This document shows positions 1 to 37,930 of a stretch of 47,492 nucleotides of DNA, piece by piece. This DNA comes from Herbidospora galbida (GTDB taxonomy: Bacteria; Actinomycetota; Actinomycetes; Streptosporangiales; Streptosporangiaceae). The position numbers and the translations under genes are program-made. The DNA lies in NCBI RefSeq assembly GCF_005233835.1, contig NZ_SZQA01000048.1:1-47492 (forward strand), written 5' to 3'. Numbering within the stretch: position 1 is the stretch's first letter; each line of letters begins with the position of its first letter. The notes under the pieces were generated by a model. It was not told the origin of the DNA. It was given only the letters and a program-made list of their open reading frames with translations, and searched no databases.

Positions 1-534
1 CAGCCGGGCGGTCGAGCGGCGGGCCAGCGCGGCGGTCGCGGCCGGGAGCAGCACCCCCGCGACTGCCAGCCCCGCCGCCAGCACCACCGCCGCCAGCGGC
101 AGCAGGAACGCGGCGATGACGACGGCCGTCACCCCCGTGACCAGCGCGGCGACGGCGGGAAGGAGGCACCGGACCAGCAGGTCCTGGACGGCGTCGGTGT
201 CGTCGACCATCCGGCTCAGCAGGTCGGCCCCCCGGTGGGAGAGCGGCCCGGCCGGGATGAGCGAGTCGTAGAGGCGCTCCCGGGTCGCCGCCTGCGCCCG
301 CAGCGCGACGTCGTGCCCCGACAGCCGCTCGGCGTAGCGGAAGACCCCGCGGGAGGTCGCGAACGCCCGGACCGCCACGATCGCCACCGACAGCGCGGCC
401 AGTTCGGGCTGCTGCGCGGCCCGGGTGATGAGCCAGGCCGCCGAGGCGATCAGCCCGAGCCCGGCCAGGTCGGCCGCCGAACCTGCCAGCGCGGCGATCA
501 GCAGCCGCCGGTTCCAGATCACCGAAGAGGTCAT
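1..534 (-). CDS. cydC: Thiol reductant ABC exporter subunit CydC (partial, N-terminal part)
   Basis: N-terminal membrane half of CydC, which pairs with CydD to form the ABC exporter that moves glutathione or cysteine to the outer face and is needed for cytochrome bd assembly. About 178 residues are present; the ATP-binding half lies beyond the left edge. The start ATG at 534 overlaps the cydD stop in a 4-base ATGA, so translation is coupled. Visible are an opening hydrophobic pair of helices (LLIAALAGSAADLAGLG), the CydC-typical stretch SRGVFRYAERLSGHD, then RGADLLSRMVDDTDAVQDLL. It is the last visible gene of the cydABDC operon. The assignment is firm because cydD precedes it. Confidence 0.93.
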   Translation of the reverse strand, partial: MTSSVIWNRRLLIAALAGSAADLAGLGLIASAAWLITRAAQQPELAALSVAIVAVRAFATSRGVFRYAERLSGHDVALRAQAATRERLYDSLIPAGPLSHRGADLLSRMVDDTDAVQDLLVRCLLPAVAALVTGVTAVVIAAFLLPLAAVVLAAGLAVAGVLLPAATAALARRSTARL

Positions 535-20033: not shown

Positions 20034-21001
20034 GTGTTTATGGCTCTTCGAATGTCGGCGGGCTGGACGGTGCAGCGGGCCTCGAGATGCGCGGCCGTCG
20101 GGATGATCGAGTCGGGGGCCGAGATGTGCGTGATCGGCGCCGTCAGCCGGCCCCACAGCCGCTCGTGCAGCAGCCGGGCCACCTCGGCGCCCCAGGTGCC
20201 GCTGGCGGTGCCGTCCTCGGCGACGTGCACCCGTCTGGCCGCCGCGAGCACGTCGGCGACCGGGGTCACGTCGAGCGGGTGGAGGCGGGCGGGGACGAGC
20301 AGCGTACAGGCGATCTCGTCCTCGACCAGCAGGTCGCGCAGGGCGGCCAGGGCGCGGTCGGTGAGGCCGCCCGGGGCCAGCAGCACGTCCTCGGTGTCCT
20401 GCTCCGCGCGGATCACCGCCCAGCCGTCGCGCACCTCGAAGGTGTGCAGGCCGTCGCCGCCGCTCAGCATCGGCTTGGTGTAGAGGACCTTGTCCTCGAA
20501 GAACACCGCCGGGGTCCCGCTCGCGAAGATCTCGGTGAACAGCCGCGCGGCGTCGTGGAAGGGGCTCATCTCGTACACCGACAGGCCCGGGACGCCGATG
20601 AAGTGCTTCTGCAGGCTCTGGCTGTGCGTCGGCCCGTAGCCCCGGCGGCCGCCGGTGGGGAGGCGCACGATCAGCGGTACGTCCACCCGGCGGCCGTACA
20701 TGGCCGTCGACTTGGCCGCGAAGTTCACCAGCTGGTCGAAGGCCAGCGTGGCGAAGTCGCTGAACATGATCTCCACGACGGCCCGGTCGCCCGCCAGGGC
20801 CAGCCCGGCGCCGACGCCGACGATGCCCCCTTCGGACAGTGGCGTGGACATCACGCGCGGGCCGAAGCGGTCCGACAGGCCTTTGGTGATCTTGAACGCG
20901 CCGCCGTACGGATCGGAGACGTCCTCGCCCAGCAGGTGGACCGACGGGTCGTTCTCCATCAGCAGGTGCAGCGACCGGTTCAGGTGTTCGGCGACTCTCA
21001 T
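20030..21001 (-). CDS. 2-oxoacid dehydrogenase E1 beta subunit
   Basis: 323 residues of the pyruvate or branched-chain 2-oxoacid dehydrogenase E1beta family (transketolase pyrimidine-binding and C-terminal domains). Typical segments are LLGEDVSDPYGGAFKITKGL, TPLSEGGIVGVGAGLALAG, RLPTGGRRGYGPTHSQS and the closing TAPITHISAPDSIIP. Both ends are ATGA overlaps, with E1alpha before it and E2 after it. With E1alpha it performs thiamine-diphosphate-dependent decarboxylation of a 2-oxoacid and reductive acylation of the lipoyl arm. The substrate is unknown; placement behind an NRPS suggests a supply role for a starter acyl unit. Confidence 0.93.
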   Translation of the reverse strand: MRVAEHLNRSLHLLMENDPSVHLLGEDVSDPYGGAFKITKGLSDRFGPRVMSTPLSEGGIVGVGAGLALAGDRAVVEIMFSDFATLAFDQLVNFAAKSTAMYGRRVDVPLIVRLPTGGRRGYGPTHSQSLQKHFIGVPGLSVYEMSPFHDAARLFTEIFASGTPAVFFEDKVLYTKPMLSGGDGLHTFEVRDGWAVIRAEQDTEDVLLAPGGLTDRALAALRDLLVEDEIACTLLVPARLHPLDVTPVADVLAAARRVHVAEDGTASGTWGAEVARLLHERLWGRLTAPITHISAPDSIIPTAAHLEARCTVQPADIRRAINT

Positions 21002-21909
21002 GACCACTCCGACAGGGGCCGGGCCAGCACGTTCTCCACCGCGGCGTCGATGAACGCGCGCTCGATCTCCTCCAGAGCCGCGACCTGCGCGGGGAAGTCG
21101 CGCGCGTAGTGGGCGTACCAGTCGCCGGCGGCGGCCTCGGCCAGCTCGGCGGCGGTCCGGGTGTCGTCGCCCTTGCTGTGCGGGCCGGCCCGGTGGACCG
21201 ACACCTCGAACACCGCCGGGCGCTTGTCCGCGCGCACCCGCTCGACCAGCGGCGCGAGCTCGGCGCGGACCACGTTCACGTCGACCGACTCGACCCGGTG
21301 GTGCAGCACCCCGAACCCGGCGCAGCGGCCCGCGATCGACCCGGCCAGCTGCGCCGTGGTGGGGGTCGACTGGGCGATCCGGTTGTGCTCGACCACGACC
21401 AGCAGCGGGGCGCCCCACAGCTGGGCCATGTTGAGGGCCTCGTACACCGAGCCCTCACCCCAGGTGCCGTCGCCGATGTACGCGCACGCGATCCCGTCGC
21501 CGGTCCGCCGGTGCCGCAGCGCCACCCCGACCGCGACCGGGAGCGACTCGCCCTGGACGCCGGTCGACAGGAACCGCTCGTGGTAGATGTGCTGGCTGCC
21601 GCCCACCCCGTTGCAGAGCGCGCCCTCACGGCCGGTGATCTCGGCCAGCAGGGCGTGCGGCTCGTCGTAGCGGGCCAGGAAGTGGCCGTGCCCGCGGTGA
21701 TTGCTGAACACATGGTCTTTGGGCCGCAGCAGGGCGCTGACCGCGACCGGCACGTGCTCCTGGCCGAGGCAGGTGTGCGTGGTGCCGTTGAGGCGGCCCT
21801 GCTCGAACAGGCGCAGCAGGGCCTTCTCGAAGTGCCGGATCCGCAGCATCCGCGACAGGTCGGCTTCCGAGACGGGCGTCAGGGTGCGCTCCCGCACCGC
21901 TCCGATCAT
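20998..21909 (-). CDS. 2-oxoacid dehydrogenase E1 alpha subunit
   Basis: 303 residues from ATG 21909, which overlaps the glycosyltransferase stop. The thiamine diphosphate motif begins at GDG (146-148, in YIGDGTWGEGSVYEALN) and ends near Asn176 (VVEHN). Other family segments are HTCLGQEH, SNHRGHGHFLARYD and GVGGSQHIY. The length suits acetoin- or pyruvate-dehydrogenase-like E1alpha. It belongs to the chain of five ATGA-coupled junctions from the NRPS to E2, so it is made in step with the assembly line rather than as a housekeeping complex. Confidence 0.93.
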   Translation of the reverse strand: MIGAVRERTLTPVSEADLSRMLRIRHFEKALLRLFEQGRLNGTTHTCLGQEHVPVAVSALLRPKDHVFSNHRGHGHFLARYDEPHALLAEITGREGALCNGVGGSQHIYHERFLSTGVQGESLPVAVGVALRHRRTGDGIACAYIGDGTWGEGSVYEALNMAQLWGAPLLVVVEHNRIAQSTPTTAQLAGSIAGRCAGFGVLHHRVESVDVNVVRAELAPLVERVRADKRPAVFEVSVHRAGPHSKGDDTRTAAELAEAAAGDWYAHYARDFPAQVAALEEIERAFIDAAVENVLARPLSEWS

Positions 21910-23126
21910 GACTGGGACTCCTTCGCGCGGGCCGCCGCCAGCGCGGCCAGCGCGGCGAGGCGGCGGTTGGGGCGCAGGGCGGTCAGGTGGGCTTCCAGGG
22001 CGCCGGCGTCGAGCGAGCCGATGAAGTCGAGCGCGGCCTTCCTCGACCGGCGGGCCAGGTGGCGGTGCAGCGCCTCGTCGCCCGTCACGGGGTCGAGGGC
22101 GTTCAGCCACGGGCCGAGGTCCTGCGCCGGGACGACCGGGACGGGCCGGGCCTGGCCGACCGACTCGTAGCGCTCGATGCTGCGCACCGGGACGGAGTAG
22201 GGCACGCCGAGCTTGGCCTCCGACAGGCCACCGACGGCGCTGGCAATCACGGGCACGCCCCGGGCCATGGCCTCGACGCAGGCGTACCCGAAGGTCTCGT
22301 CCCAGAGCGAGGGCATGAGCAGGACCTTCGCCCGCGACAGGATGTCGTCGATGTCGTCGGAGGGCGGCCCGATCTCGATGTTGGGCCGCCGCTTGAGCTC
22401 GTCGAGGTCGTCGGCGGTGGTGCCCCAGGTCGGCACGGCCAGGAACCGGAGGTGCGGCCGCGCGTCGGCCAGGCCGAGGAGCACGCTGAGGCCCTTGTAG
22501 CCGCACGGGTTGATCATCGTGACCAGGTCCCCGGCGGGCAGCTCCGGCGGATCTCCGTAAATATGCGGATAAATCAGCGTGGACGAGATGTCGCCCCACT
22601 TCTGGAGGTACGTCCCGGCCGCCTGGCTCACCGCCACCACCGACGCCGCCAGCTTCACCATCCGGGTCCCGGCCGCGCTCGGATAGAACGCCCCGGGCCC
22701 GAACGGCAGCTGCTGCAGCGTGTGCGCCAGGTAGACCACCCGCTCGGGGGTCGCCCTGAGCGCCGCCCCGAGCACGATCAGCCCGGGGTCGTCCGACGGG
22801 ACCAGCGTCCAGTCGGGGGAGACCTCGGCCGCCACCTCGCCGATGCGCCTGGCGAGCAGGGACGCCCGGGTCACCACGTGCGCCCGCACCCCGTTGTACT
22901 CGTAGACCAGCACGTCGGGGGTGGCCGACGTCACCTCCGCGCCGAGACCCCTGAGATAGGTCACGTGGTCGTCGGTGGACGTCGCGCGCAGCGCTCCGCT
23001 CATCGGCGCCACGACGTGGCACTCGTGCCCGCGCGCCGCGAGCTGCTCCATCATGATCCGATTGGACTTGTTCGCCCCGCCGTGGCTGGGCAGGTGGAAC
23101 ATGTTCTGGGCGAGCAGGACTCTCAT
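21906..23126 (-). CDS. GT4-type glycosyltransferase
   Basis: 406-residue GT-B fold glycosyltransferase. The N-terminal acceptor half begins VLLAQNMFHLPSHGGANKSNRIMMEQLAARGH; the C-terminal donor half has the retaining EX7E motif in WDETFGYACVEAMARGVPVIASAVGG. It is coupled by ATGA overlaps to the carrier protein upstream and to E1alpha downstream, so it is part of the NRPS pathway. It probably transfers a sugar from a nucleotide donor to the peptide product or a carrier-bound intermediate; donor and acceptor cannot be read from sequence. Confidence 0.88.
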   Translation of the reverse strand: MRVLLAQNMFHLPSHGGANKSNRIMMEQLAARGHECHVVAPMSGALRATSTDDHVTYLRGLGAEVTSATPDVLVYEYNGVRAHVVTRASLLARRIGEVAAEVSPDWTLVPSDDPGLIVLGAALRATPERVVYLAHTLQQLPFGPGAFYPSAAGTRMVKLAASVVAVSQAAGTYLQKWGDISSTLIYPHIYGDPPELPAGDLVTMINPCGYKGLSVLLGLADARPHLRFLAVPTWGTTADDLDELKRRPNIEIGPPSDDIDDILSRAKVLLMPSLWDETFGYACVEAMARGVPVIASAVGGLSEAKLGVPYSVPVRSIERYESVGQARPVPVVPAQDLGPWLNALDPVTGDEALHRHLARRSRKAALDFIGSLDAGALEAHLTALRPNRRLAALAALAAARAKESQS

Positions 23127-23446
23127 GCGTTGTCGGAGAGCAGTTCGTTGATCTCGTCGTCCGACATGCCGTCGAGCTGCTTCAGCAGGGCGGCCAGCTC
23201 GTCGTCGTCCACGGCCGCGATCCGGCCCTGGTCGATCGCCTTGGACGCCTCCGCGACGGTGAACCCCGACGCGAACAGCACGTCGATGGGTAACTCGACG
23301 CCGAACTGCTCCTCGACCCTGGCCAGGAACTGGACCATCGTCAGCGACTGGCCGCCGAGTTCGAAGAAGTCGTCGTCGACCGACGGAGGGGCCTGGCCGA
23401 GCAGCTCGGTCCAGATCTCGGCGACGGCGGATTCGGTGGGGGTCAT
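23123..23446 (-). CDS. Discrete phosphopantetheine carrier protein (PCP/ACP)
   Basis: 107 residues. One carrier domain (5-75) with the phosphopantetheine attachment Ser34 in ELGGQSLTM, followed by an acidic helical tail (ELAALLKQLDGMSDDEINELL) of the kind that ends many NRPS proteins and may act as a docking element. It starts in an ATGA overlap with the NRPS stop. Because the NRPS already contains its own carrier domain, this free one probably holds a second building block, either the acyl group delivered by E1/E2 or an intermediate for glycosylation. No phosphopantetheinyl transferase is in the window. Confidence 0.92.
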   Translation of the reverse strand: MTPTESAVAEIWTELLGQAPPSVDDDFFELGGQSLTMVQFLARVEEQFGVELPIDVLFASGFTVAEASKAIDQGRIAAVDDDELAALLKQLDGMSDDEINELLSDNA

Positions 23447-26400
23447 GCGGAGGTTCCCTTCAGTTCTGCGAGACCGACCAAGTCGTCGGGTTCGGCGTCA
23501 GGGGTGTCCCGGTCGAAGTTCCGGAGCGCCCGGTGCCTCAGTGCGATCACGATCGTGACGGCCATGGCGAGGCCGCAGATCAGGTAGAGCAGGCCGATGC
23601 CGCGCCCCTCGCCGACGCCGATCACGGCGCCGACCGTCGAGGCGAGCGCGCCGTCCTCGCGCAGCAGCGGGACGAACACCAGCCCGGCCAGCCAGGCCTG
23701 CACGGCCAGGCCGATGGGCTGCGTCGACATGGCGAGCATCTGGTTGATGGCGATCACGCGGGCGTGGTAGCGCTGCGGCACCTTCGAGTGGATGATCGTG
23801 ATCCAGATGCCGTCGCTGATCGTCATGAACAGGGCCATCCCGGCCGCGCCCACCGCCACCAGCGGCAGCCACGGCCGCAGGCCCATCGAGAAGGCGAACA
23901 GCGCCACGACGGCCACGGCCGAGAGCATCCCGAACATCCGGCGGCGGCGCGGGCCGCCCCAGATCGAGATCACGAACCCGCCCGTCACCGCGCCGGCGGC
24001 GGCGACCAGGGCCACGGTCCCGGTGTCGCCCAGGTCGCCCATCGAGAGCACCAGCGGCGAGATCATCGTGAACGCGGTGAACAGGAAGAAGTTGACGGCG
24101 AACATGGTGATCGCCATCGCCCGCAGGCCCGGCCGCCGCCACAGGTAGCGGAAGCCGTTGCGGATCTCCGCGCCGACGCTCTCCCGCCGTGTCCAGGCCA
24201 TGGCCTTGGGGAACGGCGTGAGCAGGGTGACGGCGACGGCGAACAGGTAGCAGACGACGTTGGCGATCAGGATCCCGTTCAGCCCGATCGCGGCCAGCAC
24301 CCCGACGGCGAACAGCGGGACCATCAGGCGGCCGATCGCGTTGCCGAGCTGGAGCACGCCGCCGGCGTGGCCGAGATAGTGCTTGGGCGCCAGTTGCGGT
24401 ACGGCCGACGCCCAGGCCAGGCGTTGCACCGTCAGCGCCACGCTCAGCAGGATGAGGATTCCGTACAGCGCGGGCATCGGGAGGGTGTCGGTGAGCAGCA
24501 GCCCCAGCATGAGCGCCTGCAGCCCGAGGCAGGCGCCGTCGCCGATGAGCATCGCCCTGCGCCGGTCGCTGCGGTCGACCAGCGCGCCGACGAGCGGCGA
24601 GAGCAGCAGGCCGGGCACCAGGGCGATGATGGCGAACAGGCTGAACTGCAGGAGCGAGCCGGTCTTCAGGTAGGCCCAGATCGGGACCGCGAACTCGGTC
24701 ATGGCCGTGCCGACCATCGACACGGTCTGGCCGACGGCGACCCGCAGGAACCGGCCCAGCGTGGCCTCGACGGGCGGGGCCTCGCGGGAGACCGCCTCCT
24801 TGCGCCACGTCTCGGCGGCGTGCGGGCCGTCGAGGTCGGTGTGGACGGTGGTGATGATCCTCGCCAGTTCCCCGGCGCGGTAGCGGAGGAAGTAGTGGCC
24901 CGCCTCGTCGATCACCACGAGCGCCGTCGTCCTGGCGGTGACGTGCCAGTCGCGGTAGCGCTCCTCGTAGAAGTCGGTGATCGGGTCGCGGCTGCCGACG
25001 ATCGAGATGACCGGGGCGGTCAGCGGGGTCGCGCCCTCGTCGATGAGCTTGGTGAAGTAGGCCTCGCCCGCCTTGGCGTCGGAGCGCATGGTGGTGACGA
25101 TGCGCTCGACCTCCTCGCCGCCCAGGCCGTCGAGGTCGGCGCCGATGGCGCGCAGCCAGTTGGCCTCGGAGTTGTTGTTCCGCAGCCGGCGGTTGTTGAA
25201 GTAGTGCTTGTTCAGCAGGCCGCTCAGGCCCTTGGTCGGGACGGCGAACGGGAAGCTGCCGGCGATGTAGACGGCGTCGACCTCCCGGCCGGCCGCCTCG
25301 ACGCGGCGGGCGATCTCGGTCGTGAGGGCGCTGCCGACGCAGTGGCCGTACAGGACCAGCGGGCCCTTGACCTTGGCCAGGATCTCGGCGCAGATCTTCT
25401 CGGCGGCCTCGTCGAAGGGGAGGATCTCCTCGTCGACGCCGAGCTCGTGGCCGGGCAGGGCGACGGCCTGGAGCGCGACGCCCTTCGGCAGCGCCTCGGC
25501 GAGCGCCTGGTAGACGACCGCGCTGCCGCCGCCGTAGGGCACGCAGACCAGCGTCATCGTGGGGGCGGGCACCGGTGGGGTGAGGCGCACCAGCAGGCCG
25601 CCCGGCTCCTCGGCCGGGCCGTCGACCAGCGCGGCCAGCGCGGCGACGGTCCGGTTGGCCAGCGCGTCGACGACGCTGATCGGCTTGTCCGGCATCGTCT
25701 GGCGCAGCTTGGCGATCATGCGGATGAGCAGCAGCGAGTGGCCGCCCAGGGCCATGAAGTCGTCGTCGACGCCGATGGTCTCGACGTTGAGGACCTCTTT
25801 CCAGACGCCGGCGATGAGGAGTTCGGTCTCGGTGCTCGGCGCTCTTCCCGCGGAGGCGGTGACCTGGGGGAGGGGCAGGGCCTTGCGGTCGACCTTGCCG
25901 TTCGCGTTGAGCGGCATGCGGTCGAGCTCGGTGAAGACCACCGGGACCATGTACTCGGGGAGCCGGAGCGCGCAGTGTTCGTCCAGGCCCCGCACCGGTT
26001 CGGCGACCGGCACGTAGTAGGCCACCAGTCGTTCCTCGTGCACCGCCGCCACCGCGTCCCGCACGCCCGGATGGTCGAGGAGCGCGGCCCTGACCTCGTC
26101 CAGCTCGATGCGGTAACCGCGGATCTTCACCTGGTCGTCGAACCGGCCGAGGAACGCCACGTTGCCGTCGGGCAGCCAGAGGACCCGGTCGCCCGTCTTG
26201 TAGACGCGCTCACCCTCGAACTCCACGAACCGTTCGGCGGTCAGGTCCGGTCGGTTCATGTAGCCGCGGGTGACGCCGACGCCACCGACGTACAGTTCGC
26301 CCGGGACGCCCGCGGGGAGCAGGCGGCGGTGCGGGTCGAGAACGAACATGCGCATGTTGGGCAGTGGCGCCCCGATGGGGACGACCTCGTGGTGCTGCCG

Positions 26401-28773
26401 GTGGGTGACCGGGTAGACGCACGTGCCGACGGTGGCCTCGGTGGGGCCGTACTCGTTGATCAACCGTCCGGGGCCGAGGATCTCGAGCCAGCGGTCGGCG
26501 AGCGAACCGGGGAGGGCCTCCCCGGCCACGACGATCACCCCGGCCAGCGCGGCGGCGCGGGCGTCGTCGAGTTGGTGGCCCAGCACCTCCAGATGGCCGG
26601 GGGTGAGTTTGATGAAACTGAAGTCCTTGCCGCTGAGGAGCTCGCCGAGCTCGCCCATGTCGAAGTCCTGGTCGAGGACGGTCACGGCCTGGCCCGTCAC
26701 GAGCGGCGCCCACAGGTTGGGCACGACCAGGTCGAAGGCGACCGACCCGAGCAGCGGCGCGCCGCCCTCGCCCCGGGAGGCGAGCTCCTCGACGGCCCAC
26801 CACACGTGGTTGACCAGCCCCCGGTGGGTGACCTGGACGCCCTTCGGCTTCCCGGTCGAGCCCGAGGTGAAGATCAGGTAGGCCAGCCGGTCGAGGTCGG
26901 GCTCGACGTCGACGGGGGAGGTGTCGCCGTCGATCGAGGCGACCTCGACGACCGTGGGGCCGTCGAACCGGGAGAGGTACTTCCGCTCGGTCAGCACCAG
27001 CGGCGTGGCCGCCGTCTCGAGCATGTCGGCGATGCGCTGCGGCGGGAACGCCGGATCCATCGGCACGTACGCCGCCCCGGCCAGCCACACGCCCAGCAAC
27101 GACGCGATCAGGTCGGGGGAGCGGTCGAGCAGCACCCCGACCGTGCTCTCCGGCGTGACCCCCTCGGCGAGCAGCCGCCGGGCGATCTGGTTGGCGCGGG
27201 CGTGCAGCTCGGCGTAGGAGGTGTCCCGGCTGGCGAACCTGACCGCGGTCGCGGTGGACTCCCGGTGCTCCGCGAGCAACAAAGGGAGCGCTCTCTCTGG
27301 GTACGGCCGCGCCGAGTCGTTCCACGTCCCGAAGATCGTGTCCCGCTCCTCGGGGGTCACCAGGTCGAGCTCGGCCAGCGTGGCCGTCGGGTCGGCCGCG
27401 ATCTGGGCGGCGAGGTGGTGGTAGTGGCCGACCATGCGGTCGACGACGTCGTCGTCGAGCAGGTCGCGCCGGTAGGTGAAGTCGAGGCCGGTGACGTCGC
27501 CGTCGAGGTGGACGAGCAGCGACAGCTCGTAGCCCTGGTGGTCGACCTCGTGGTCCCAGATCGAGGCGGTCAGGCCGGGCCAGTCGCCGCGCTGGTCGCG
27601 GAAGCCGCGTAAGGAGAAGCTGACCGGCAGCTTCAGGCCGACCGCGTCGGCCAGCACCGACAGCGGCAGCTGGTTGCTCAGCGCGCCGCCGACCGCCGCC
27701 CGGATCCGCGCGGCGACCTCGGGGAACGTGGGATCGCCGGACAGGTCGCCGTGGATCGGCACCGCGTTCACGAAGCACCCGACGACGCCTTCGAGCTCGC
27801 GCCGCCGGCGCCCGCCGTTGGTGGTCGCCAGGGTGACCCCGTCGGCGCCCGTGTAGCGGGCCAGCAGCATCGAGAACAGCGCCAGCAGGGCGGTGAACGG
27901 CGTCGTGCCCGGCCCGCCGGCGGCCTGCAGCGCCGTGAGGGTGCCCGGGGCGAGCAGGCTCCAGTTCGTGCTGGTACGCCGCCCGCCGGGCACCGGCCGC
28001 TCACGGCGCACCGGCAGTTCGACCGACGGGGCGCCGTCGAGCGCGGTCCGCCAGTAGGCCGTGCGGCGATCGAGCGTCTCGGTGGTCAGCTCGGCCCGCG
28101 ACCAGGCGGCGTAGTCGGCGTACTGCACCGGCAACGCGGGCAGCGTGCCCGGCTCTCCGCCGAGCGCCTCCCGGTAGAGCGTGGCCAGCTCGTCGGCGAG
28201 GATGCCCATCGACCAGCCGTCGGCGGCGATGTGGTGGCACACGACCAGCAGGGCGTGCGACTCCTCGGCCAGCCGGATGAGCGTGGCCGCCACGACCGGC
28301 CCGTTCGACAGGTCGAACCGCCGGGTCACCGCCTCGGCGGTGATCTCCTCGGCGCGGTCGGGGCCGCCGTGGAACTCCAGCGGCATCGGGAACGGATCGA
28401 GGACGGTCTGCAGCGGTTCGTCGCCGTAAGCGGCCTGGTCGCCGGGGGTCGCGTAAACGGTACGCAGGCTCTCGTGTCGGGCGATCAGGGCGTCGAGGGC
28501 GGCGGTCAGCGCCGGGACGTCGAGCGGGCCGTCGAGTCGCAGGCCCAGGGTGGCGTTGGGGGCCGGGGACACGCCGTCGAGTTGCGCGCCGAGCCACATC
28601 TGCCGCTGTTCGAAGGAGCAGGCGAGGGGGCCCTGGTCGCGCGGGACGACGGGGATGGGGGATTTCGGACGCGCGGTGAGCAGGCGGGCGAGGGCCGCCT
28701 GACGCGCGGGGGAGAGCCCGCCGAGGGAGCTACGAGGCGCGGACTCGGGTGTGGAGGTGGACGTCACTGCCAC
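23443..28773 (-). CDS. Single-module NRPS fused to an MFS exporter (C-A-PCP-TE-MFS)
   Basis: 1,776 residues from GTG 28773 (AAAGG seven bases upstream; a TTG at 28800 is also in frame). Condensation domain about 50-460 with HHIAADG at 180-186. Adenylation domain 490-970 with FTSGSTGKPKG and the A10 lysine in NGKVDRK; my hand-read ten-residue pocket code is D-L-P-K-V-A-E-V-G-K, closest to Asn codes. Carrier domain with Ser1013 (LGGHSL). Thioesterase about 1070-1315 whose nucleophile elbow is GHCVG: Cys1145 replaces Ser, with Asp1263 (GSRDPIT) and His1293 (EAGHYF). The last 430 residues are an MFS transporter of about 12 helices. A perfect CebR operator lies 113 bases upstream. It makes and presumably exports a small acylated amino-acid product. 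Confidence 0.93.
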   Translation of the reverse strand: MAVTSTSTPESAPRSSLGGLSPARQAALARLLTARPKSPIPVVPRDQGPLACSFEQRQMWLGAQLDGVSPAPNATLGLRLDGPLDVPALTAALDALIARHESLRTVYATPGDQAAYGDEPLQTVLDPFPMPLEFHGGPDRAEEITAEAVTRRFDLSNGPVVAATLIRLAEESHALLVVCHHIAADGWSMGILADELATLYREALGGEPGTLPALPVQYADYAAWSRAELTTETLDRRTAYWRTALDGAPSVELPVRRERPVPGGRRTSTNWSLLAPGTLTALQAAGGPGTTPFTALLALFSMLLARYTGADGVTLATTNGGRRRRELEGVVGCFVNAVPIHGDLSGDPTFPEVAARIRAAVGGALSNQLPLSVLADAVGLKLPVSFSLRGFRDQRGDWPGLTASIWDHEVDHQGYELSLLVHLDGDVTGLDFTYRRDLLDDDVVDRMVGHYHHLAAQIAADPTATLAELDLVTPEERDTIFGTWNDSARPYPERALPLLLAEHRESTATAVRFASRDTSYAELHARANQIARRLLAEGVTPESTVGVLLDRSPDLIASLLGVWLAGAAYVPMDPAFPPQRIADMLETAATPLVLTERKYLSRFDGPTVVEVASIDGDTSPVDVEPDLDRLAYLIFTSGSTGKPKGVQVTHRGLVNHVWWAVEELASRGEGGAPLLGSVAFDLVVPNLWAPLVTGQAVTVLDQDFDMGELGELLSGKDFSFIKLTPGHLEVLGHQLDDARAAALAGVIVVAGEALPGSLADRWLEILGPGRLINEYGPTEATVGTCVYPVTHRQHHEVVPIGAPLPNMRMFVLDPHRRLLPAGVPGELYVGGVGVTRGYMNRPDLTAERFVEFEGERVYKTGDRVLWLPDGNVAFLGRFDDQVKIRGYRIELDEVRAALLDHPGVRDAVAAVHEERLVAYYVPVAEPVRGLDEHCALRLPEYMVPVVFTELDRMPLNANGKVDRKALPLPQVTASAGRAPSTETELLIAGVWKEVLNVETIGVDDDFMALGGHSLLLIRMIAKLRQTMPDKPISVVDALANRTVAALAALVDGPAEEPGGLLVRLTPPVPAPTMTLVCVPYGGGSAVVYQALAEALPKGVALQAVALPGHELGVDEEILPFDEAAEKICAEILAKVKGPLVLYGHCVGSALTTEIARRVEAAGREVDAVYIAGSFPFAVPTKGLSGLLNKHYFNNRRLRNNNSEANWLRAIGADLDGLGGEEVERIVTTMRSDAKAGEAYFTKLIDEGATPLTAPVISIVGSRDPITDFYEERYRDWHVTARTTALVVIDEAGHYFLRYRAGELARIITTVHTDLDGPHAAETWRKEAVSREAPPVEATLGRFLRVAVGQTVSMVGTAMTEFAVPIWAYLKTGSLLQFSLFAIIALVPGLLLSPLVGALVDRSDRRRAMLIGDGACLGLQALMLGLLLTDTLPMPALYGILILLSVALTVQRLAWASAVPQLAPKHYLGHAGGVLQLGNAIGRLMVPLFAVGVLAAIGLNGILIANVVCYLFAVAVTLLTPFPKAMAWTRRESVGAEIRNGFRYLWRRPGLRAMAITMFAVNFFLFTAFTMISPLVLSMGDLGDTGTVALVAAAGAVTGGFVISIWGGPRRRRMFGMLSAVAVVALFAFSMGLRPWLPLVAVGAAGMALFMTISDGIWITIIHSKVPQRYHARVIAINQMLAMSTQPIGLAVQAWLAGLVFVPLLREDGALASTVGAVIGVGEGRGIGLLYLICGLAMAVTIVIALRHRALRNFDRDTPDAEPDDLVGLAELKGTSA

Positions 28774-28885: not shown

Positions 28886-28899
28886 TGGGAGCGCTCCCA
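28886..28899. promoter_or_regulatory. CebR-type operator upstream of the NRPS operon
   Basis: Exact TGGGAGCGCTCCCA, identical over 14 bases to the two copies before cebE. It is 113 bases upstream of the NRPS GTG and about 420 bases from GT1, so it could control either or both directions. Confidence 0.85.
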
Positions 28900-28936
28900 C
28901 TGCACCCCCACAAGAGATTAATGGAACCTATTCGCC

Positions 28937-28952
28937 GCGCGCAAGTGCGCGC
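28937..28952. repeat. Palindrome GCGCGCAAGTGCGCGC
   Basis: Seven-base arms around a 2-base centre, within the NRPS-GT1 control region and 37 bases from the CebR operator. It may be a second operator or a hairpin; no matching factor is known to me. Confidence 0.35.
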
Positions 28953-29272
28953 CACGCCCCGTCGGGGAATGTCGGCTTACCCGCGAATTACCCATGAGTA
29001 AGCGAGCAGCCCTCCTTCACTCTGCTGTTGCGCAGGTCAGGCATCCGGAAGCAGGATAGTATAGAACTTAAAAAAAGTCACGACCATGAGTCTGCCCCAC
29101 AATCCCGGAGCACGGGAAGCGTCGTTCCATTATGCGGGATCACCGTTGACAGGAACATGTCGCTACTGCTTCTTTGGTTGCATTCCAGGACGGGCATCCG
29201 GGAACAAGAGAGCGCTTTCTCAGTCGGAGTATCACCCACCGGCCGCCACCGATGCAAGGGAACAGAAACTTT

Positions 29273-29333
29273 CATGCGCAACTCACTGTCAGCCGAAATT
29301 CCGGGCGCCGGGCGGGTGGCGTGCCGAGGATAA
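29273..29333 (+). CDS. Possible 19-residue leader peptide before GT1
   Basis: An ATG at 29273 with AAGGGA upstream opens a frame of 19 codons (MRNSLSAEIPGAG and so on) that stops at TAA 29331-29333, overlapping the GT1 start GTG by 13 bases in another frame. GT1 itself has only a weak ribosome site, so translation of this frame could prime it. This is a speculative call based on placement and ribosome site alone. Confidence 0.3.
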
Positions 29334-30541
29334 TCGCCGTCACCCATGGCACCGACGGCGACGTGATGCCCTTCGTCCGGCTCGGATCCGAACTCCGCCG
29401 CCAGGGCCATGAGGTGACCCTGATCACGCACGAGCCCTACCGCGCGGCGGCCGCCGGCCTCGACTTCACCGCGATCGACACGGCCGAGCAGTTCGCCCGC
29501 CACCAGGCCGACACCGCCCAGCTCATGGACACCCGCGGCGGCCTCGGCTGGCTCGCCTTCTACGAGCGCAACGGCCTGTTCGAGCAGCTCTCCTTCGAGG
29601 TCAAGGCCATCGCCGAACGGCACCAGCCGGGACGGACGGTCCTGGTCGGCCGGCACACCTCGGCCCTGTCGGTCCGGTTCGCCGCCGAGCTGCTCGGCTG
29701 CCCGGTCGCCTGGGTCGCGGTCTCCCCGATCCAGGTCATGGGCGCCCGCCTCGCGGCCCACATGTACGCCACCGAACTCGCCGAGGGCTTCCAGTCGGTC
29801 CGCGACGACCTCGGCCTGCCGCCCATAGCCGATTGGCATGGCTGGTTCGCCGGCGCCACGATGGACATAGGACTGTGGCCCCGCTGGTTCGACCAGGCCG
29901 GCGCGAAATCACCGGCCCGATTCGAACTCGCCGGATTCGCCGTGCCCGACGCCGCATCGCGGGAAACGTTCTCCGACGACGTCGTCGCCGATCGCCCGGT
30001 CCTGGTCTCGGGCGGCACCGGGCGCATGCTGAACGAGGCCTTCTACGCCTCCGCCCTGAAAGCGGTCGAGGGATTTCCGGCCGTGGTCGTCACGCCCTAT
30101 CCCGAATTGCTGCCCGCGCCGCTGCCCGACGGGGTGCGCTGGTTCGAACGGTTGCCGTTCGACCAGGTCGTACCGAAAGTCAGAGCGGTTGTTCACCACG
30201 GCGGCATCGGCACTCTCACCCGCGCGTTGATGGCAGGCACCCCGCAATTGGTGCTCGCCGACGGCGCCGACCGTCCCGACAACGCCGCCCGGCTCGCCAA
30301 ACTCGGGCTGGCACGATGGCTTCCGCCCGGGAAATGGCCCCAGGCGGGGGAACAGCTGCGCGACCTGCTCACATCGGGGGAGCGGCCGGCAGCACCGGAG
30401 GACCTCGATCCGTCGGCGGGCATCACGAAAGCGGCGGCCCTCGTTGCCTCGCTTCTCGGCCCGCCGCGCCCGGCTCGTCCCGTCCTCACGGAATCCCAGC
30501 GCGAAGCGCTCCGACGCCACCTCCGAAAAGGATCCCGATGA
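29321..30541 (+). CDS. GT1 (MGT/UGT-like) glycosyltransferase
   Basis: 406 residues from GTG 29321, chosen because the family begins at IIAVTHGTDGDVMPFVRLG; the frame is open further up without homology. GT-B fold glycosyltransferase of the natural-product type (macrolide, glycopeptide or sterol glycosyltransferases). The donor-binding region reads VVHHGGIGTLTRALMAGTPQLVLADGADRPDNAARL. It is translationally coupled to the oxygenase gene (ATGA). It diverges from the NRPS operon and probably decorates its product; a self-protection role, with the GH1 enzyme reversing it, is possible. Confidence 0.88.
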   Translation: MPRIIAVTHGTDGDVMPFVRLGSELRRQGHEVTLITHEPYRAAAAGLDFTAIDTAEQFARHQADTAQLMDTRGGLGWLAFYERNGLFEQLSFEVKAIAERHQPGRTVLVGRHTSALSVRFAAELLGCPVAWVAVSPIQVMGARLAAHMYATELAEGFQSVRDDLGLPPIADWHGWFAGATMDIGLWPRWFDQAGAKSPARFELAGFAVPDAASRETFSDDVVADRPVLVSGGTGRMLNEAFYASALKAVEGFPAVVVTPYPELLPAPLPDGVRWFERLPFDQVVPKVRAVVHHGGIGTLTRALMAGTPQLVLADGADRPDNAARLAKLGLARWLPPGKWPQAGEQLRDLLTSGERPAAPEDLDPSAGITKAAALVASLLGPPRPARPVLTESQREALRRHLRKGSR

Positions 30542-31618: not shown

Positions 31619-32056
31619 ATGTCGATGATCAGCAAGCGGTTCCTGGGCGCGGCCATCGTGGCGCTGGGCGTCTTCGGCGCCGCGACCCCCGCGCACGCGA
31701 ACCAGGAGTTCTACACCCTGAGCCTCTACGACGACGCGGGGTACGAAGGCGGGTGGCGGCACCTGATGACGCTCGTGTGGAACGAGCTCGGCCAGTTCTG
31801 GGTGCGCACCCAGATCTCCCACCCCGACCTCACCAGCTTCAGCGACAAGACCAGTTCGCTGACCAACTACGACTGGAACGCCTGGGTCGTCTACGACGAC
31901 AAGAACTACCGCGACCGCCACTACTGCATCCGGCCCGGCGAGACGGTGCCCAACCTCAGCTCGTCGCGCTGGAAGTTCAACGACAAGATCTCCTCGGCCA
32001 AGCGGCTGCAGAGCGCGAGCTGCGCGGGTTACCCGGCCTTCTTCACCACCGGCTGA
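31619..32056 (+). CDS. Secreted beta/gamma-crystallin-like protein (peptidase inhibitor I36 type)
   Basis: 145 residues from ATG 31619 with GAGGAG upstream. Sec signal peptide (KRFLGAAIVALGVFGAATPAHA, cleavage expected before NQEFY). The mature part of about 120 residues has the aromatic, Asp-rich pattern of crystallin-type folds (LYDDAGYEGG, SLTNYDWNAWVVYDDKNYRDRHYCI, KFNDKISSAKRL) and two Cys, likely a disulfide. Similar small secreted proteins in actinomycetes are annotated as I36 metalloprotease inhibitors. Its stop abuts the convergent cebR stop (TGATCA) with no spacer. A link to the NRPS genes is not shown. Confidence 0.75.
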   Translation: MSMISKRFLGAAIVALGVFGAATPAHANQEFYTLSLYDDAGYEGGWRHLMTLVWNELGQFWVRTQISHPDLTSFSDKTSSLTNYDWNAWVVYDDKNYRDRHYCIRPGETVPNLSSSRWKFNDKISSAKRLQSASCAGYPAFFTTG

Positions 32057-33076
32057 TCAGGTCGACGCCCTGATCACCAGGTGGGTGTCGAGGATGACCA
32101 CCGGCTGCTCCAGCGGCTCGCCGTTGATGCGGGCGACGAGGAGCTGCACCATCTGCCGGCCCATCGCCTCGGTCGGCTGGTGGACGCTGGTCAGCGGCGG
32201 CTCGGTGTGCAGGGCGACCTTCGAGTCTTCGAACCCGATCAGCGCGATGTCCTGCGGCACCGCGCACCCCCGCTCCCGCAGCACCCGCAGCGCGCCGACC
32301 GCCATCGGGTCGGAGGCCGCGAACACGGCGTCGAGCTCGGGGTGGCGGTCGAGCAGTTCGCGCATCGCCGTCGAGCCGCTCTCTTCGGAGAAGTCTCCGT
32401 AGGCGACGCGTTCGGTCAGGCCGGTCGCGAGGAGGGCGTCGCGGTAGCCGGCCAGTCGGTCGACACCCACGCCCATGTCCTGGGGACCTGCGATGGTCGC
32501 GATGCGGGTGCGACCCTTGCCGAGCAGATATTTGACCGCCTGCCGGGCCCCCGCCCGGTTGTCCATGTCGACGTAGCTGTAGGGGTTGAGCCCCACGGGG
32601 CGGCCACCGAGGACGGTGGGCACGCCCAGCTCTTCGAGACGTCCCGGCAGGGGGTCGGCGCCGTGGACCGAGGTCAGCAGGACGCCGTCGACGTGCTGCC
32701 CGGTCAGGTAGTGCTCCAGGCGGTCGTGTTCGTTGCGGTTCTGGGCCATGCTCAGAATCAGCTGCAGGCCCGTCTCGGCCAGCGCCGACCCGATTCCCCT
32801 GATCAGGCCGGCGAAGTAGGGCTCGTCGAACACGCGCTGCTCGGATTCCGACACCACCAGGGCGATGGTGTCGGTCCGGTTGGTGACGAGGGTGCGGGCC
32901 GCCCGGTTGGGGACGTATCCGAGCTCGTCGATCGCGAGCAGGACGGCGTCGCGGGCCTTCTCGCTCACCTTCGGTGAGCCGTTGATGACCCGTGAAACCG
33001 TTCCTCGCCCGACTCCGGCACGCGCGGCGACGGCTTCGAGCGTCGGTCTCGCGACCGAGCGGCGGTCCCCGTTCAT
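32057..33076 (-). CDS. cebR: LacI-family repressor CebR
   Basis: 339 residues. N-terminal LacI helix-turn-helix (RPTLEAVAARAGVGRGTVSRVIN) with the minor-groove hinge helix ending VPNRAARTLV, then a periplasmic-binding-protein-like sensor domain. It stands 27 bases after bglC in the cebEFG-bglC cluster, the same arrangement as Streptomyces, where CebR binds TGGGAGCGCTCCCA and is released by cellobiose or cellotriose. That exact sequence occurs four times in the window. No copy lies directly upstream of cebR itself, so it may be read through from bglC. Confidence 0.9.
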   Translation of the reverse strand: MNGDRRSVARPTLEAVAARAGVGRGTVSRVINGSPKVSEKARDAVLLAIDELGYVPNRAARTLVTNRTDTIALVVSESEQRVFDEPYFAGLIRGIGSALAETGLQLILSMAQNRNEHDRLEHYLTGQHVDGVLLTSVHGADPLPGRLEELGVPTVLGGRPVGLNPYSYVDMDNRAGARQAVKYLLGKGRTRIATIAGPQDMGVGVDRLAGYRDALLATGLTERVAYGDFSEESGSTAMRELLDRHPELDAVFAASDPMAVGALRVLRERGCAVPQDIALIGFEDSKVALHTEPPLTSVHQPTEAMGRQMVQLLVARINGEPLEQPVVILDTHLVIRAST

Positions 33077-33103: not shown

Positions 33104-34540
33104 CTATTGTGCCGGACCCCGGAGGCCGCCGTGCCGGATGGTTTCGGCGTACCAGAGAGCGCTATCTTTCAGGATGCGCGTCTGGGTTGGGTAGTCCACG
33201 TACACTAGGCCGAATCTCTTGCCATAACCCCACGCCCACTCGAAATTGTCCATGAGCGACCAGGCGAAGTAGCCCTCCAGCGGCACGCCCGCCTCGATGG
33301 CCTGGTGGCAGACCCTCAGGTGGGTGTCGATGTAGGCCTGGCGTTCGACGTCGTGGATCGCGCCGTCGTCGGTGACCACGTCGTCGTAGGCGGCGCCGTT
33401 CTCTGAAATGTACAGAGGCACGGCGGGGTACTCGTCGCGCAGCCGGGTGAGGACTTCGAGCAGGCCGTTGCCGTCGACCTCCCAGCCCATGCCGGTGACC
33501 GGGCGGCCGCCGTTGACGAAGCCGACGTGCTCGTTGCCGGGCCACGCCGAGCCGCTGTCGGTGGGGGCCGCGGACGCCGACTTGGGGCCGCCCTCGGCGC
33601 CGGTGACGGTGAAGCGGCTGTAGTAGTTGATCAGCAGCATGTCGAGCGGCGCCGCGATCAGCTCCAGGTCGCCGTCCTTGATGTACTCCTCGGGCGCGAT
33701 CAGCGGCGTCAGGTCGTCGAGGACGTCCTGGGGGTAGCTGCCGCGCATGAGGGCGTCCAGGAAGAAGCGGTTCTGCATGCCGTCGATGCGGCGGGCCGCG
33801 TCGAGGTCGGCCTCGCTGTCGCTCTGGGGGCTGATCGCGTAGAGGTTGACGCAGCCGCCGATCCGCGTGTCGGTGCGCTGGGCCCGCATCGCCTGGACGG
33901 CCAGGCCGTGGGCCAGGTTCAGGTGGTGGGCCGCCTTGATCGACTCCGCCGGGTTCCGGCGGCCGGGGGCGTGCTCGCCCGAGGAGTAGCCGAGGAACGC
34001 CGCGCACCACGGCTCGTTGACCGTGGCCCAGTTGGCGACCCGGTCGCCGAGGGCGCCGTGCACGATGGCGGCGAAGTCCGCGAAGCGCTTCGACAGGTCG
34101 CGCGACGGCCACCCGCCTTCGTCTTCGAGGGTCTGCGGCAGATCCCAGTGGTAGAGCGTCACCCACGGCGAGATGCCGTAGGAGAGCAGCTCGTCGACCA
34201 GGCGCTTGTAGAAGTCGAGGCCCTTGGCGTTGACCTCGCCCTTGCCGTCGGGCTGGATCCGCGTCCAGGAGACCGAGAACCGGTAGGCGCTCAGCCCCAG
34301 GTCGGCCATCAGCCGCACGTCGTCGCGGTAGCGGTTGTAGTGGTCGATGGCCACCGAGGCGTCGTCGCCCTCGACGACCCGCCCGGGTTGCGCGACGAAG
34401 GTGTCCCAGATGGAACGGCCGCGGCCGTCGGCCGTGAGCGCGCCTTCGATCTGGTAGGCCGACGTCGCGCTGCCCCAGACGAAGCCGGTGGGGAAGACCA
34501 GACCAGGGGTGTCGATCTGGGTCTCTGTGTTCTGGGTCAC
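33104..34540 (-). CDS. bglC: GH1 beta-glucosidase BglC (ceb operon)
   Basis: 478 residues from GTG 34540, which overlaps the cebG stop in GTGA. Intracellular family 1 beta-glucosidase: acid/base Glu176 in TVNEP, nucleophile Glu380 in ISENG, with FVWGSATSAYQIEG and AWSLMDNFEWAWGY. It cleaves imported cellobiose and cello-oligosaccharides to glucose, which removes the CebR inducer. It shares overall layout with the other GH1 in this window, but the two differ throughout, so they are paralogues rather than a recent duplication. Confidence 0.94.
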   Translation of the reverse strand: MTQNTETQIDTPGLVFPTGFVWGSATSAYQIEGALTADGRGRSIWDTFVAQPGRVVEGDDASVAIDHYNRYRDDVRLMADLGLSAYRFSVSWTRIQPDGKGEVNAKGLDFYKRLVDELLSYGISPWVTLYHWDLPQTLEDEGGWPSRDLSKRFADFAAIVHGALGDRVANWATVNEPWCAAFLGYSSGEHAPGRRNPAESIKAAHHLNLAHGLAVQAMRAQRTDTRIGGCVNLYAISPQSDSEADLDAARRIDGMQNRFFLDALMRGSYPQDVLDDLTPLIAPEEYIKDGDLELIAAPLDMLLINYYSRFTVTGAEGGPKSASAAPTDSGSAWPGNEHVGFVNGGRPVTGMGWEVDGNGLLEVLTRLRDEYPAVPLYISENGAAYDDVVTDDGAIHDVERQAYIDTHLRVCHQAIEAGVPLEGYFAWSLMDNFEWAWGYGKRFGLVYVDYPTQTRILKDSALWYAETIRHGGLRGPAQ

Positions 34541-35430
34541 TCCTTGACCGCACCTTCCATGAGTCCGCCGATGATCTGGCGGCCGAAAAAGACGAATACC
34601 AGCAGAAGAGGAATGATCGAGACCGTAGTGCCCGCGAAGATGAGCACGTAATTGGTCGAATAACGGTCGTTCAGAGCCCTCAGCGCGACCTGCACAGTCG
34701 GATTGTCCGGCGTGAGCACGATGAGAGGCCAGAGGAACTCGTTCCAGATCAGCATGAACGTCTGGATCGCCAGCACGGCCATGCCGGGCCGGACCGCCGG
34801 CACCGCGACGTTCCACCAGATGCGCAGGGTGCTCGCGCCGTCGACCCGCGCGGCCTCGACCAGTTCTCGCGGTACGGCCTGGCGCGTGTACTGCGTCATG
34901 AGGAACACCCCGAAACCGTTCACCAGGAACGGCAGGATGACCGCCTTGAGGGTGTTCGTCCAGCCCAGCGTCACCATCATCTGGTAGAGCGGGACGATGC
35001 CCATCTGCTGCAGCGGCACCATCATGGTCAGCACGACCGACAGCAGCAGCAGGTTGCGGCCCCTGAAGGTGAGTGAGGCGAACGCGAACCCGGCCAGGGT
35101 CGAGATGATCACGATGCCGATCGTCACCGTGCAGGCGATGATGATCGAGTTGATGATGCCCGTCATGAAGTGGGCGTTCTCGGCCTCGAAGACGGCCCTG
35201 ATGTTCTCGCCGAGGTTGCCCGCCGGGAGGAGCGGCGGCGGCATGCTGTGCGCGTCCTCGTTGGTGCGGGTCGCGATGACGATCATCCAGTAGATCGGGA
35301 AGATCGACAGGAAGATGGCCAGGCCCAGGCTCGCCTTGGTCAGGACGGTCGCCCTGAACGGGTCGAGCCGCGAGGTGCCGGCCCCCGTGGGGCGCGGGGC
35401 CCGGGGCGCCCGATGTGTGATCGTCGTCAT
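34537..35430 (-). CDS. cebG: Cello-oligosaccharide ABC transporter permease CebG
   Basis: 297 residues, MalG-type permease of the CUT1 family, six predicted helices. The cytoplasmic coupling loop is EAARVDGASTLRIWWNVAVPAVRPG. It pairs with CebF to form the membrane channel. ATG 35430 overlaps the cebF stop (ATGA) and GGGAGA lies upstream. The ATPase (MsiK in Streptomyces) is not in the window and is normally encoded elsewhere. Confidence 0.92.
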   Translation of the reverse strand: MTTITHRAPRAPRPTGAGTSRLDPFRATVLTKASLGLAIFLSIFPIYWMIVIATRTNEDAHSMPPPLLPAGNLGENIRAVFEAENAHFMTGIINSIIIACTVTIGIVIISTLAGFAFASLTFRGRNLLLLSVVLTMMVPLQQMGIVPLYQMMVTLGWTNTLKAVILPFLVNGFGVFLMTQYTRQAVPRELVEAARVDGASTLRIWWNVAVPAVRPGMAVLAIQTFMLIWNEFLWPLIVLTPDNPTVQVALRALNDRYSTNYVLIFAGTTVSIIPLLLVFVFFGRQIIGGLMEGAVKE

Positions 35431-36401
35431 CGTGATCTCCCGATGCCGCGGACGATGGCGAAGTTGATCAGCGCGGTGATCATGATGAGCAGGAACAGGA
35501 TCCAGGCCGCGGCCGCGGCGTAGCCGTACTGGAAGTCCCGGAAGCCCTCCTTGACGATGAACATGGCCACCGTCTGGAACTGGCCCGTCGTGCCGCCCGT
35601 CATCAGGCCGGCGCCGAACATCACCGGCTCGGCGAACAGGGTGAAACCGCCGATCGTCGAGACGATGACGGTGAAGATGATCGTGGGCTTGAGCAGCGGG
35701 ACCGTGATGCCCCAGAACTGGCGGCGCGGGGAGGCGCCGTCGATGGCGGCGGCCTCGTAGAGGTCCTTGGGGATCGTCTGCATCGCGGCCAGGTAGATGA
35801 TCGCGTTGTAGCCGGTCCAGCGCCAGTCGATCATCGTGGCGATGGCGATCCACGACGACCACTTCTCGTTCTGCCAGTGGATCGGGTCCACCCCGAACGC
35901 GCCCAGCACCCAGTTGACCAGGCCGTAGTCACGGCCGTACAGCTGGGTGAAGACGACCGCGACGGCGACCACCGAGGTGATGAGCGGCGCGAGCACGCTC
36001 AGCCGCAGCACCAGCCGGCCGCGCAGTTTCTTGTTCAGTGCGTTGGCCAGCAGCAGCGCGAGCAGCAGCTGCGGCACCGTCGCGATCACGAAGATGCCGA
36101 CGGTGTTGAGCACCGAGTTCCAGAACTTGTCGTCCGCCAGCAGCTCGGTGTAGTTCTCCATGCCGATGAACGTCTTGTCGCCGGCGAGCTGCCAGTCGTG
36201 CAGCGACACCCAGGCGGTGAAGATCAGCGGGAAGACGCCGAAGATCGCGAACAGGATGAAGTAGGGCGAGACGAACAAATAGGGAGTGGCCCGCAGGTCC
36301 AGCCAGGACCAGAATCTCCGGCCGCCCGGCGGCCGCGCGTGCCGCCGGGGCCCGGGTGGCACCGTGCGGGTCCGGGAGCCCGCGTCGACGCTGAGGCTCA
36401 T
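35427..36401 (-). CDS. cebF: Cello-oligosaccharide ABC transporter permease CebF
   Basis: 324 residues from ATG 36401 (AAAGG upstream); the open frame extends 29 codons further through the hairpins and is not coding. MalF-type CUT1 permease with the EAA loop YEAAAIDGASPRRQFWGITVPLLKPT. A basic Pro/Arg-rich N-terminal tail precedes the first helix (YLFVSPYFILFAIFGVFPLIF). It is separated from cebE by 97 bases with two strong hairpins, which should lower its expression relative to the binding protein. Confidence 0.92.
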   Translation of the reverse strand: MSLSVDAGSRTRTVPPGPRRHARPPGGRRFWSWLDLRATPYLFVSPYFILFAIFGVFPLIFTAWVSLHDWQLAGDKTFIGMENYTELLADDKFWNSVLNTVGIFVIATVPQLLLALLLANALNKKLRGRLVLRLSVLAPLITSVVAVAVVFTQLYGRDYGLVNWVLGAFGVDPIHWQNEKWSSWIAIATMIDWRWTGYNAIIYLAAMQTIPKDLYEAAAIDGASPRRQFWGITVPLLKPTIIFTVIVSTIGGFTLFAEPVMFGAGLMTGGTTGQFQTVAMFIVKEGFRDFQYGYAAAAAWILFLLIMITALINFAIVRGIGRSR

Positions 36402-36420
36402 CGTCAACCTTTCGTGGAAG

Positions 36421-36482
36421 GAGCGGCCGGGGGGATCCGGCCGCTCAAGTGAGTGACCGGCCCCTCGGTGCAGGGGCCGGTC
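36421..36482. promoter_or_regulatory. Tandem hairpins between cebE and cebF
   Basis: Two perfect inverted repeats in the cebE-cebF gap: GACCGGCCCCT (36455-36465) with AGGGGCCGGTC (36472-36482), and GAGCGGCCGG (36421-36430) with CCGGCCGCTC (36437-36446). In the mRNA they follow the cebE stop and precede the cebF start. No U-run follows, so partial attenuation or protection against 3' decay is more likely than full termination, giving excess binding protein over permease. Confidence 0.75.
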
Positions 36483-36498
36483 GGGCACGGCCGGGGGG

Positions 36499-37916: not shown

Positions 37917-37930
37917 TGGGAGCGCTCCCA
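37917..37930. promoter_or_regulatory. CebR operator 1 upstream of cebE
   Basis: Exact TGGGAGCGCTCCCA, 78 bases before the cebE ATG. Confidence 0.92.

Follow-up and report, generated by a model that had tools for sequence, protein, structure and literature searches.

A candidate CebR operator directly behind the predicted promoter of an NRPS operon in Herbidospora galbida and its recurrence on related NRPS lineages

Introduction

The closest described counterpart of the locus analyzed here is the thaxtomin system (txtR/txtA/txtB) of Streptomyces scabiei, in which the regulator family and the consensus are the same and an NRPS pathway is likewise switched by cello-oligosaccharides, according to the sections consulted of PMC8914351, PMC12527672, and PMC5332605. 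In these sections the thaxtomin sites are imperfect (cGGGAGCGCTCCCA, gGGGAGCGCTCCCA), lie 786–900 nt upstream or within txtB, and act through TxtR. Thaxtomin is, in the extracts of the literature consulted, the sole biosynthetic cluster for which direct CebR control has been shown. Most other cellobiose-responsive clusters of S. scabiei looked CebR-independent, and three cryptic clusters with no predicted site were up in a cebR mutant (both from excerpts of PMC8914351); rotihibin NRPS proteins, in the extracts at hand, displayed no dependence on cebR in this organism.

The CelR/CebR regulon, as presented for Thermobifida fusca CelR in the excerpts of Anderson et al. 2012 (PMC3377646), has the same operator, recognition helix, and cellulase and ceb operon targets as found here, and includes LacI/protein-kinase pairs among its targets, as does the present genome at contig C51. 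The excerpts also place CelR sites near pyruvate dehydrogenase-related genes in Streptosporangium roseum and suggest secondary metabolites as a potential target; an NRPS beside those sites, paired divergent promoters, and cross-genus conservation, all found here, are not named in them. We infer that the S. roseum pyruvate dehydrogenase-linked sites probably belong to the same cluster family as the one described below.

A third point of reference is scleric acid. Its account (PMC6335953, in excerpt) describes SclQ1-4 as E1α, E1β, E2, and a carrier protein, each a separate protein and all next to an NRPS, an arrangement also seen here, and proposes that SclQ1-4 and QncN/L/M turn a ketose phosphate into a carrier-bound glycolyl unit; CebR is unmentioned in the excerpt. 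Among the matches listed in the open-licence literature, we recognized no description of CebR control of these NRPS clusters.

Results

The window analyzed is the 47,492-nt stretch that constitutes the whole contig C60 of the 8.31 Mb genome of the soil actinomycete Herbidospora galbida. An initial annotation had placed an exact 14-mer at 28886–28899, 113 bases upstream of an NRPS gene, with two exact copies before cebE. Pattern search of the window confirmed all three and disclosed four exact copies of TGGGAGCGCTCCCA in total (28886, 17515, 37917, and 38047), the last two being those before cebE and the one at 17515, before an aldose epimerase gene, being absent from that annotation. The likely start codon of the NRPS is the GTG at 28773, which is preceded by a AAAGAAAGG stretch and agrees with the upstream alignment, and the gap to the operator measures 112 bases. 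Matches to TGGGAGCGCTCCCA with at most two mismatches number six in the window versus 0.51 expected (100 shuffles, largest 2). Genome-wide, the 14-mer occurs exactly at 15 places and with one mismatch at two, versus two places at ≤1 mismatch for the reversed pattern in the same genome. Two-mismatch versions lie at 38112–38125, within the DNA that precedes cebE, and at 31799–31812, inside a small frame adjoining CebR.

A conserved promoter (TTGCGC-18-TAATCT) is predicted directly upstream of the NRPS operator, and the flanking DNA diverges (Table 1). The operator stands, relative to its promoter, about where lac O1 does; with the promoter as predicted, a repressor in this position would cover the bases transcribed first and act by blocking. 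A second NRPS of the genome, 44%-identical and located on contig C36, carries the same operator, and its promoter (TTGCCC-17-TAGCCT) likewise ends 15 nt before it. Relatives also show a CebR site close to the epimerase start. In a set of 19 operator sites that were hand-picked, several of them related and the cellulase sites outside the test, the pattern TTG[AC]NN-16..19-TANNNT, defined after the sequences had been viewed, ends 1–15 nt before the operator in 16 (shuffle rates 0.001–0.018 each) and is unmatched in three (cebE proximal, G033 C37, and G034). The possibility that a known structured RNA precedes the NRPS was checked with an Rfam scan of the window, which gave no hit at gathering thresholds.

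The thaxtomin precedent invoked by the initial annotation therefore needs qualification: an NRPS pathway is indeed under CebR there, but the txt sites are imperfect, non-canonical, and positioned far upstream of txtR/txtA and inside txtB, whereas a perfect site here stands 112 nt before the core NRPS gene, directly after the predicted promoter. The arrangement in Herbidospora is accordingly the more direct one.

Table 1 Coordinates of operators, predicted promoter elements, and genes in the window
Feature	Position	Strand	Basis or remark
CebR/CelR-type operator TGGGAGCGCTCCCA, perfect palindrome, of NRPS operon	28886–28899	.	Exact match and upstream alignment
Predicted −10 element TAATCT of NRPS promoter	28915–28920	−	Ends 15 nt before operator; within invariant block TTAATCTCTT
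Predicted −35 element TTGCGC of NRPS promoter	28939–28944	−	Spacer to −10 of 18 nt
Second exact CebR operator, epimerase/APH unit	17515–17528	.	1 nt after predicted −10
Predicted −10 TAGGTT of epimerase/APH unit	17530–17535		Promoter pattern
Predicted −35 TTGACT of epimerase/APH unit	17554–17559		Promoter pattern
NRPS, C-A-PCP-TE with fused MFS exporter	23443–28773	−	Pfam, sequence, alignment; start codon inferred
Carrier protein (PCP/ACP) as a separate polypeptide, with intact GGQS serine motif	23123–23446	−	Overlaps NRPS end
Family 4 glycosyltransferase (GT4)	21906–23126	−	Pfam
E1α, thiamine-diphosphate enzyme, pyruvate dehydrogenase type	20998–21882	−
E1β, transketolase-type pyrimidine and C-terminal domains	20030–20995	−	Start approximate
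E2-like lipoyl/acyltransferase protein	18948–20156	−	True start probably further in
GH1 β-glucosidase, last gene of presumed first transcription unit	17575–18960	−	TIGR03356 above cut-off
Aldose 1-epimerase	16552–17430	−	Pfam; GTG start at 17430 suggested by homologues and a ribosome-binding site
APH-type phosphotransferase	15565–16545	−	Pfam
Divergent GT28/EryCIII-like glycosyltransferase	29315–30541	+	Start approximate
CebR (LacI family), recognition helix AGVGRGTVSRVINGS	32057–33076	−	Best PDB match 5ysz
GH1 β-glucosidase of ceb operon	33104–34816	−
CebF/CebG-type permeases	34537–36488 (35427–36488 and about 34537–35400)	−
CebE-type sugar-binding protein	36499–37839	−
CebR operator proximal to cebE	37917–37930	.	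Exact match
CebR operator distal to cebE	38047–38060	.	Exact match

The genes from the NRPS to GH1 overlap or nearly touch (NRPS/carrier protein by 4 bases, carrier protein/GT4 by 4, and E2/GH1 by 13 in the listed frames), so that they are probably carried on one transcript. E1α, E1β, a lipoyl/acyltransferase E2, and a carrier protein are encoded together with the NRPS. Judging from the protein families, the E1/E2/carrier set would use a ketose phosphate to make and load a C2 glycolyl unit, which the NRPS would join to an amino acid; our best guess at the product is a small glycolyl-aminoacyl compound, probably glycosylated. The single amino-acid-activating module has a specificity code read as DLPKVAEVGK, which we take, with low confidence, to be Asn/Asp-like. 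Its thioesterase carries the nucleophile motif GHCVG with Cys as nucleophile; Cys is common among the aligned NRPS relatives, three of which (G088, G063, and G021) have GHS instead. At the position of the acyltransferase motif, usually HRxxDG, the E2-like protein has DHRVVNG and is possibly adapted for transfer to a carrier protein. The likeness to the Scl cassette and to the quinocarcin cassette QncN/QncL/QncM is one of gene layout as described in the literature, and the present locus differs in its C-A-PCP-TE-MFS NRPS, two glycosyltransferases, GH1, epimerase, and CebR site.

Beyond the operon, a class II DAHP synthase and an FAD monooxygenase are encoded at 7115–9745. Both are also found near epimerase/APH in L213, L214, L215, L219, and L220, and the DAHP synthase alone in L218; this neighbourhood may reflect synteny or form part of the cluster. 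A large NACHT/STAND-type NTPase (11082–15539) adjoins the cluster; among the loci of seven named relatives, some of which end nearby, it is matched in L051 only (49%). Pfam analysis of 29 proteins of the window showed two regulators, CebR and an ECF sigma factor (9763–10353); no AraC/TxtR-type activator was found in this set.

Site conservation in related genomes was borne out. NRPS relatives are present in six named Herbidospora species (90–96% identity) and Acrocarpospora catenulata (75%), and the exact site is kept in 10/10 NRPS orthologues first examined, spanning three genera (seven Herbidospora including the window, A. catenulata, G084, and G070), as well as before the NRPS in two orthologues opened later (L213 and L214). 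It is still kept in H. solisilvae (G005), where cebR is not a close neighbour of the NRPS but some 22 kb distant. When nine upstream regions were aligned, invariant columns made up 41%, and the 15-column run formed by the operator was among the two longest. Since G084, G033, G169, G207, and A. catenulata share one genus code, this alignment spans two genera, and G070 adds the third. The longest invariant run, of 17 columns, falls in a block CGTGACTTTTTTTAAGT at 29056–29082 on the minus strand, with ATACTAT nearby, in 9/9 upstream regions. Restricted to the Herbidospora rows of the same alignment is a GCAAG/GCAAC repeat every 10 bp after the operator, which we take to be a MalR-like motif and a candidate second sugar input.

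A second view of the switch came from the E1α genes, which were searched for in 297 genomes of the family and examined at the 30 best-scoring loci. Twelve are of the window's type, with E1α inside the operon and no site within about 1.5 kb, and 18 (18 genomes, five genera) display paired CebR sites, perfect on the E1α side and with one mismatch on the other. Six of these 18 (L058 and L216–L220) were opened wide, and there the other side is an NRPS of the same family, transcribed from a divergent promoter. Pairwise identity falls to as low as 46%, with mainly the operators and −35/−10 elements kept; L195 departs on the E1α side. The operators are 197–199 bp apart in 16/18 pairs, for which reason repression by looping between them was considered, and then set aside. 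The copy on the NRPS side is consistently imperfect, which suggests a weaker, tuned CebR lock on that side. Twenty further, lower-scoring E1α loci, hand-picked from the remainder of the list and covering ~4 kb each, beyond which operon promoters could lie, contained no CebR site (0/20); a carrier protein was present in 12 and an NRPS match in 10 within the stretch fetched. CebR sites do lie near two E1α genes of the list that fall outside the 30, those of G034 C15 and G056 C56.

These loci bear on the alternative that the CebR-bound operator serves sugar catabolism through GH1, the epimerase, the APH-type kinase, and E1/E2, with the NRPS as a passenger of the operon. GH1 and the epimerase do suit cellobiose use, E1/E2 can also be read as catabolic, and in G033 (L212, 9555–9722) the NRPS is reduced to a ~56-codon remnant while the operator and the downstream carrier protein, GT4, E1/E2, GH1, epimerase, and APH genes stay, which means that the operator may have functions besides NRPS control. 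However, the C36 NRPS has the operator yet no E1/E2 match in 20 kb around it; at the 18 paired loci the promoter facing away from E1α bears its own CebR site and, in the six opened wide, is an NRPS promoter; carrier proteins (12) and NRPS matches (10) also recur among the 20 further loci; and a biosynthetic role of such E1/E2 cassettes has been published for scleric acid (PMC6335953, in excerpt). We therefore regard the catabolic alternative as unlikely, and direct control of the NRPS pathway as the preferred explanation.

The regulator that would exert this control is encoded close by: the ceb operon (cebE, two permeases, GH1, and CebR) lies on the minus strand 3–9 kb from the NRPS operon. 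CebR matches PDB entry 5ysz, which we take to be T. fusca CelR, with an E of 5e-124, and the stretch AGVGRGTVSRVINGS is identical in both. The genome encodes 34 LacI-type helices that pass the Pfam cut-off, and GRGTVSR is found in that of CebR alone. Across the 27 related genomes holding the NRPS places examined, a CebR orthologue is present in 25, all with an identical GRGTVSR helix (25/25), and exact sites total 295 versus one for the reversed control; the two genomes without an orthologue have 0 and 1. The correspondence is imperfect, as G075 encodes a CebR orthologue whose helix is identical yet contains zero exact sites.

Recognition of the site by a LacI-family regulator other than CebR was entertained because there are so many such helices in the genome (34) and because exact 14-mers lie just upstream of the LacI genes at C51:184221 and C23:34287. 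The helices of these two proteins differ (GVSPATASRV and GVSKGAVSYA), with GRGTVSR in CebR only; the genomes devoid of CebR (2/27) are nearly devoid of sites, as given above; and two LacI paralogues on C31 and one on C45 (helix RATVSR) are found near copies of a different palindrome, GAGAGCGCTCTC. With all 34 helices over the cut-off read and CebR the sole match, this possibility was rejected as very improbable. A LacI-type palindrome, AGAAAGCGCTCTCT, is also present at 29207–29220 near the GT28 gene, with GAGAGCGCTCTC in the Acrocarpospora and G084 alignment rows; copies of the AGAAAGCGCTCTCT/GAGAGCGCTCTC motif are clustered near the C31 and C45 paralogues and also flank the NRPS cluster of C36, which suggests a second sugar regulator beside CebR.

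The 14 exact sites of the genome other than the one at the NRPS include eight that serve cellulases or cebE. Cellulase starts account for 6/15 sites overall (three GH6, two GH9, and one GH48, proteins with CBM2 domains), cebE for 2/15, and NRPS genes for another 2/15 (C60 and C36). One site precedes the LacI/protein-kinase pair and another has a LacI gene on one side and a family 5 solute-binding protein on the other; the remaining single sites are found before the epimerase, where an MscL channel frame begins, and before a gene without a Pfam match. This distribution is that of an ordinary CebR/CelR regulon that has taken in NRPS operons.

Recurrence was assessed at 54 related NRPS places selected from the best-scoring list, with lower partial matches outside the selection. 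A site (≤1 mismatch, 600 bp upstream) is present in 23, at least one being exact in 20, and 31, many of them in CebR-bearing genomes and one with 23 bp available, have none within 600 bp upstream. The window's genome itself holds two NRPS paralogues without the operator, on C24 and C95; the C95 cluster, with no CebR site in the 18 kb examined, served as a negative control. By type, the site is found in 7/7 C36-type Herbidospora genes and 0/7 C24-type genes, all of the latter in CebR-bearing genomes; C24-type genes of G002, G003, G005, and G006, typed by identity to the query and by company, entered the site check and not the trees, from which G076:C401 (23 bp upstream) was excluded too. On quick LG+G4 trees of 50 and 58 proteins, which have long branches, site presence requires five changes versus shuffled means of ~17 and ~20, with 0/500 shuffles as low; the trees show five state changes, not which of them are gains. 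Operator-bearing genes fall into five groups (C60 type, C36 type, G088/G063/G021, G034, and G056 with relatives), and the operator was likely gained independently across NRPS lineages, losses being the less likely reading. The initial annotation had anticipated an independent case of a peptide locus in another actinomycete; the peptide locus stands, and rather than a single case it is a pattern in several genera of one family. That the palindrome is there by chance or hitch-hiking, with no effect on the NRPS, might be read from the 31 siteless relatives, including the seven C24-type genes, and was rejected as hardly credible given its enrichment in window and genome, its invariance amid diverging flanks in the NRPS upstream and operator-pair alignments, its placement after a predicted promoter, and its recurrence in five lineages.

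Discussion

Operator identity, promoter-adjacent position, conservation, a unique recognition helix, and recurrence all fit direct CebR control of the NRPS, a reading supported at the level of sequence comparison. In the mechanism we propose, CebR would, when cello-oligosaccharides are lacking, occupy the beginning of the region transcribed from the NRPS promoter (operator at ~+9 to +22) and would thereby block one operon encoding the NRPS, carrier protein, GT4, E1α, E1β, E2, and GH1, while the second operator would block an internal promoter of the epimerase and APH genes. Cellobiose imported by CebEFG would release CebR, so that cellulases, cellobiose uptake, and the biosynthetic operon would come on together. 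We consider it very probable that CebR directly represses this glycolyl-loading NRPS pathway and that cello-oligosaccharides lift the repression; the 14-mer at 28886–28899 as a functional CebR operator is part of that explanation, whose likelihood applies to it as a whole. That CebR controls the NRPS operon of the window is predicted with high confidence. The finding of the initial annotation was right, and understated.

What sets the present peptide clusters apart from those in the literature extracts consulted is that perfect operators follow closely on their predicted promoters, and do so in several genera. Genomes with these NRPS clusters have CebR sites that mark cellulases as well, as shown for the genome of the window. 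These comparisons suggest that relatives have kept or rebuilt a cellulose-sensing switch on related clusters, by which a plant sugar would turn chemistry on. The prediction that follows is cheap and specific: the product should appear on cellobiose feeding or upon loss of cebR. How frequently polymer breakdown is wired to specialised metabolism also becomes testable through genome scanning. More broadly, we give an even chance to the proposal that CebR is a common elicitor-sensing lock on a glycolyl-peptide class in Streptosporangiaceae, with cellulose breakdown triggering a metabolite for defence or signalling that derives in part from the consumed sugar; if this is true, these silent clusters would have a general elicitor in cellobiose.
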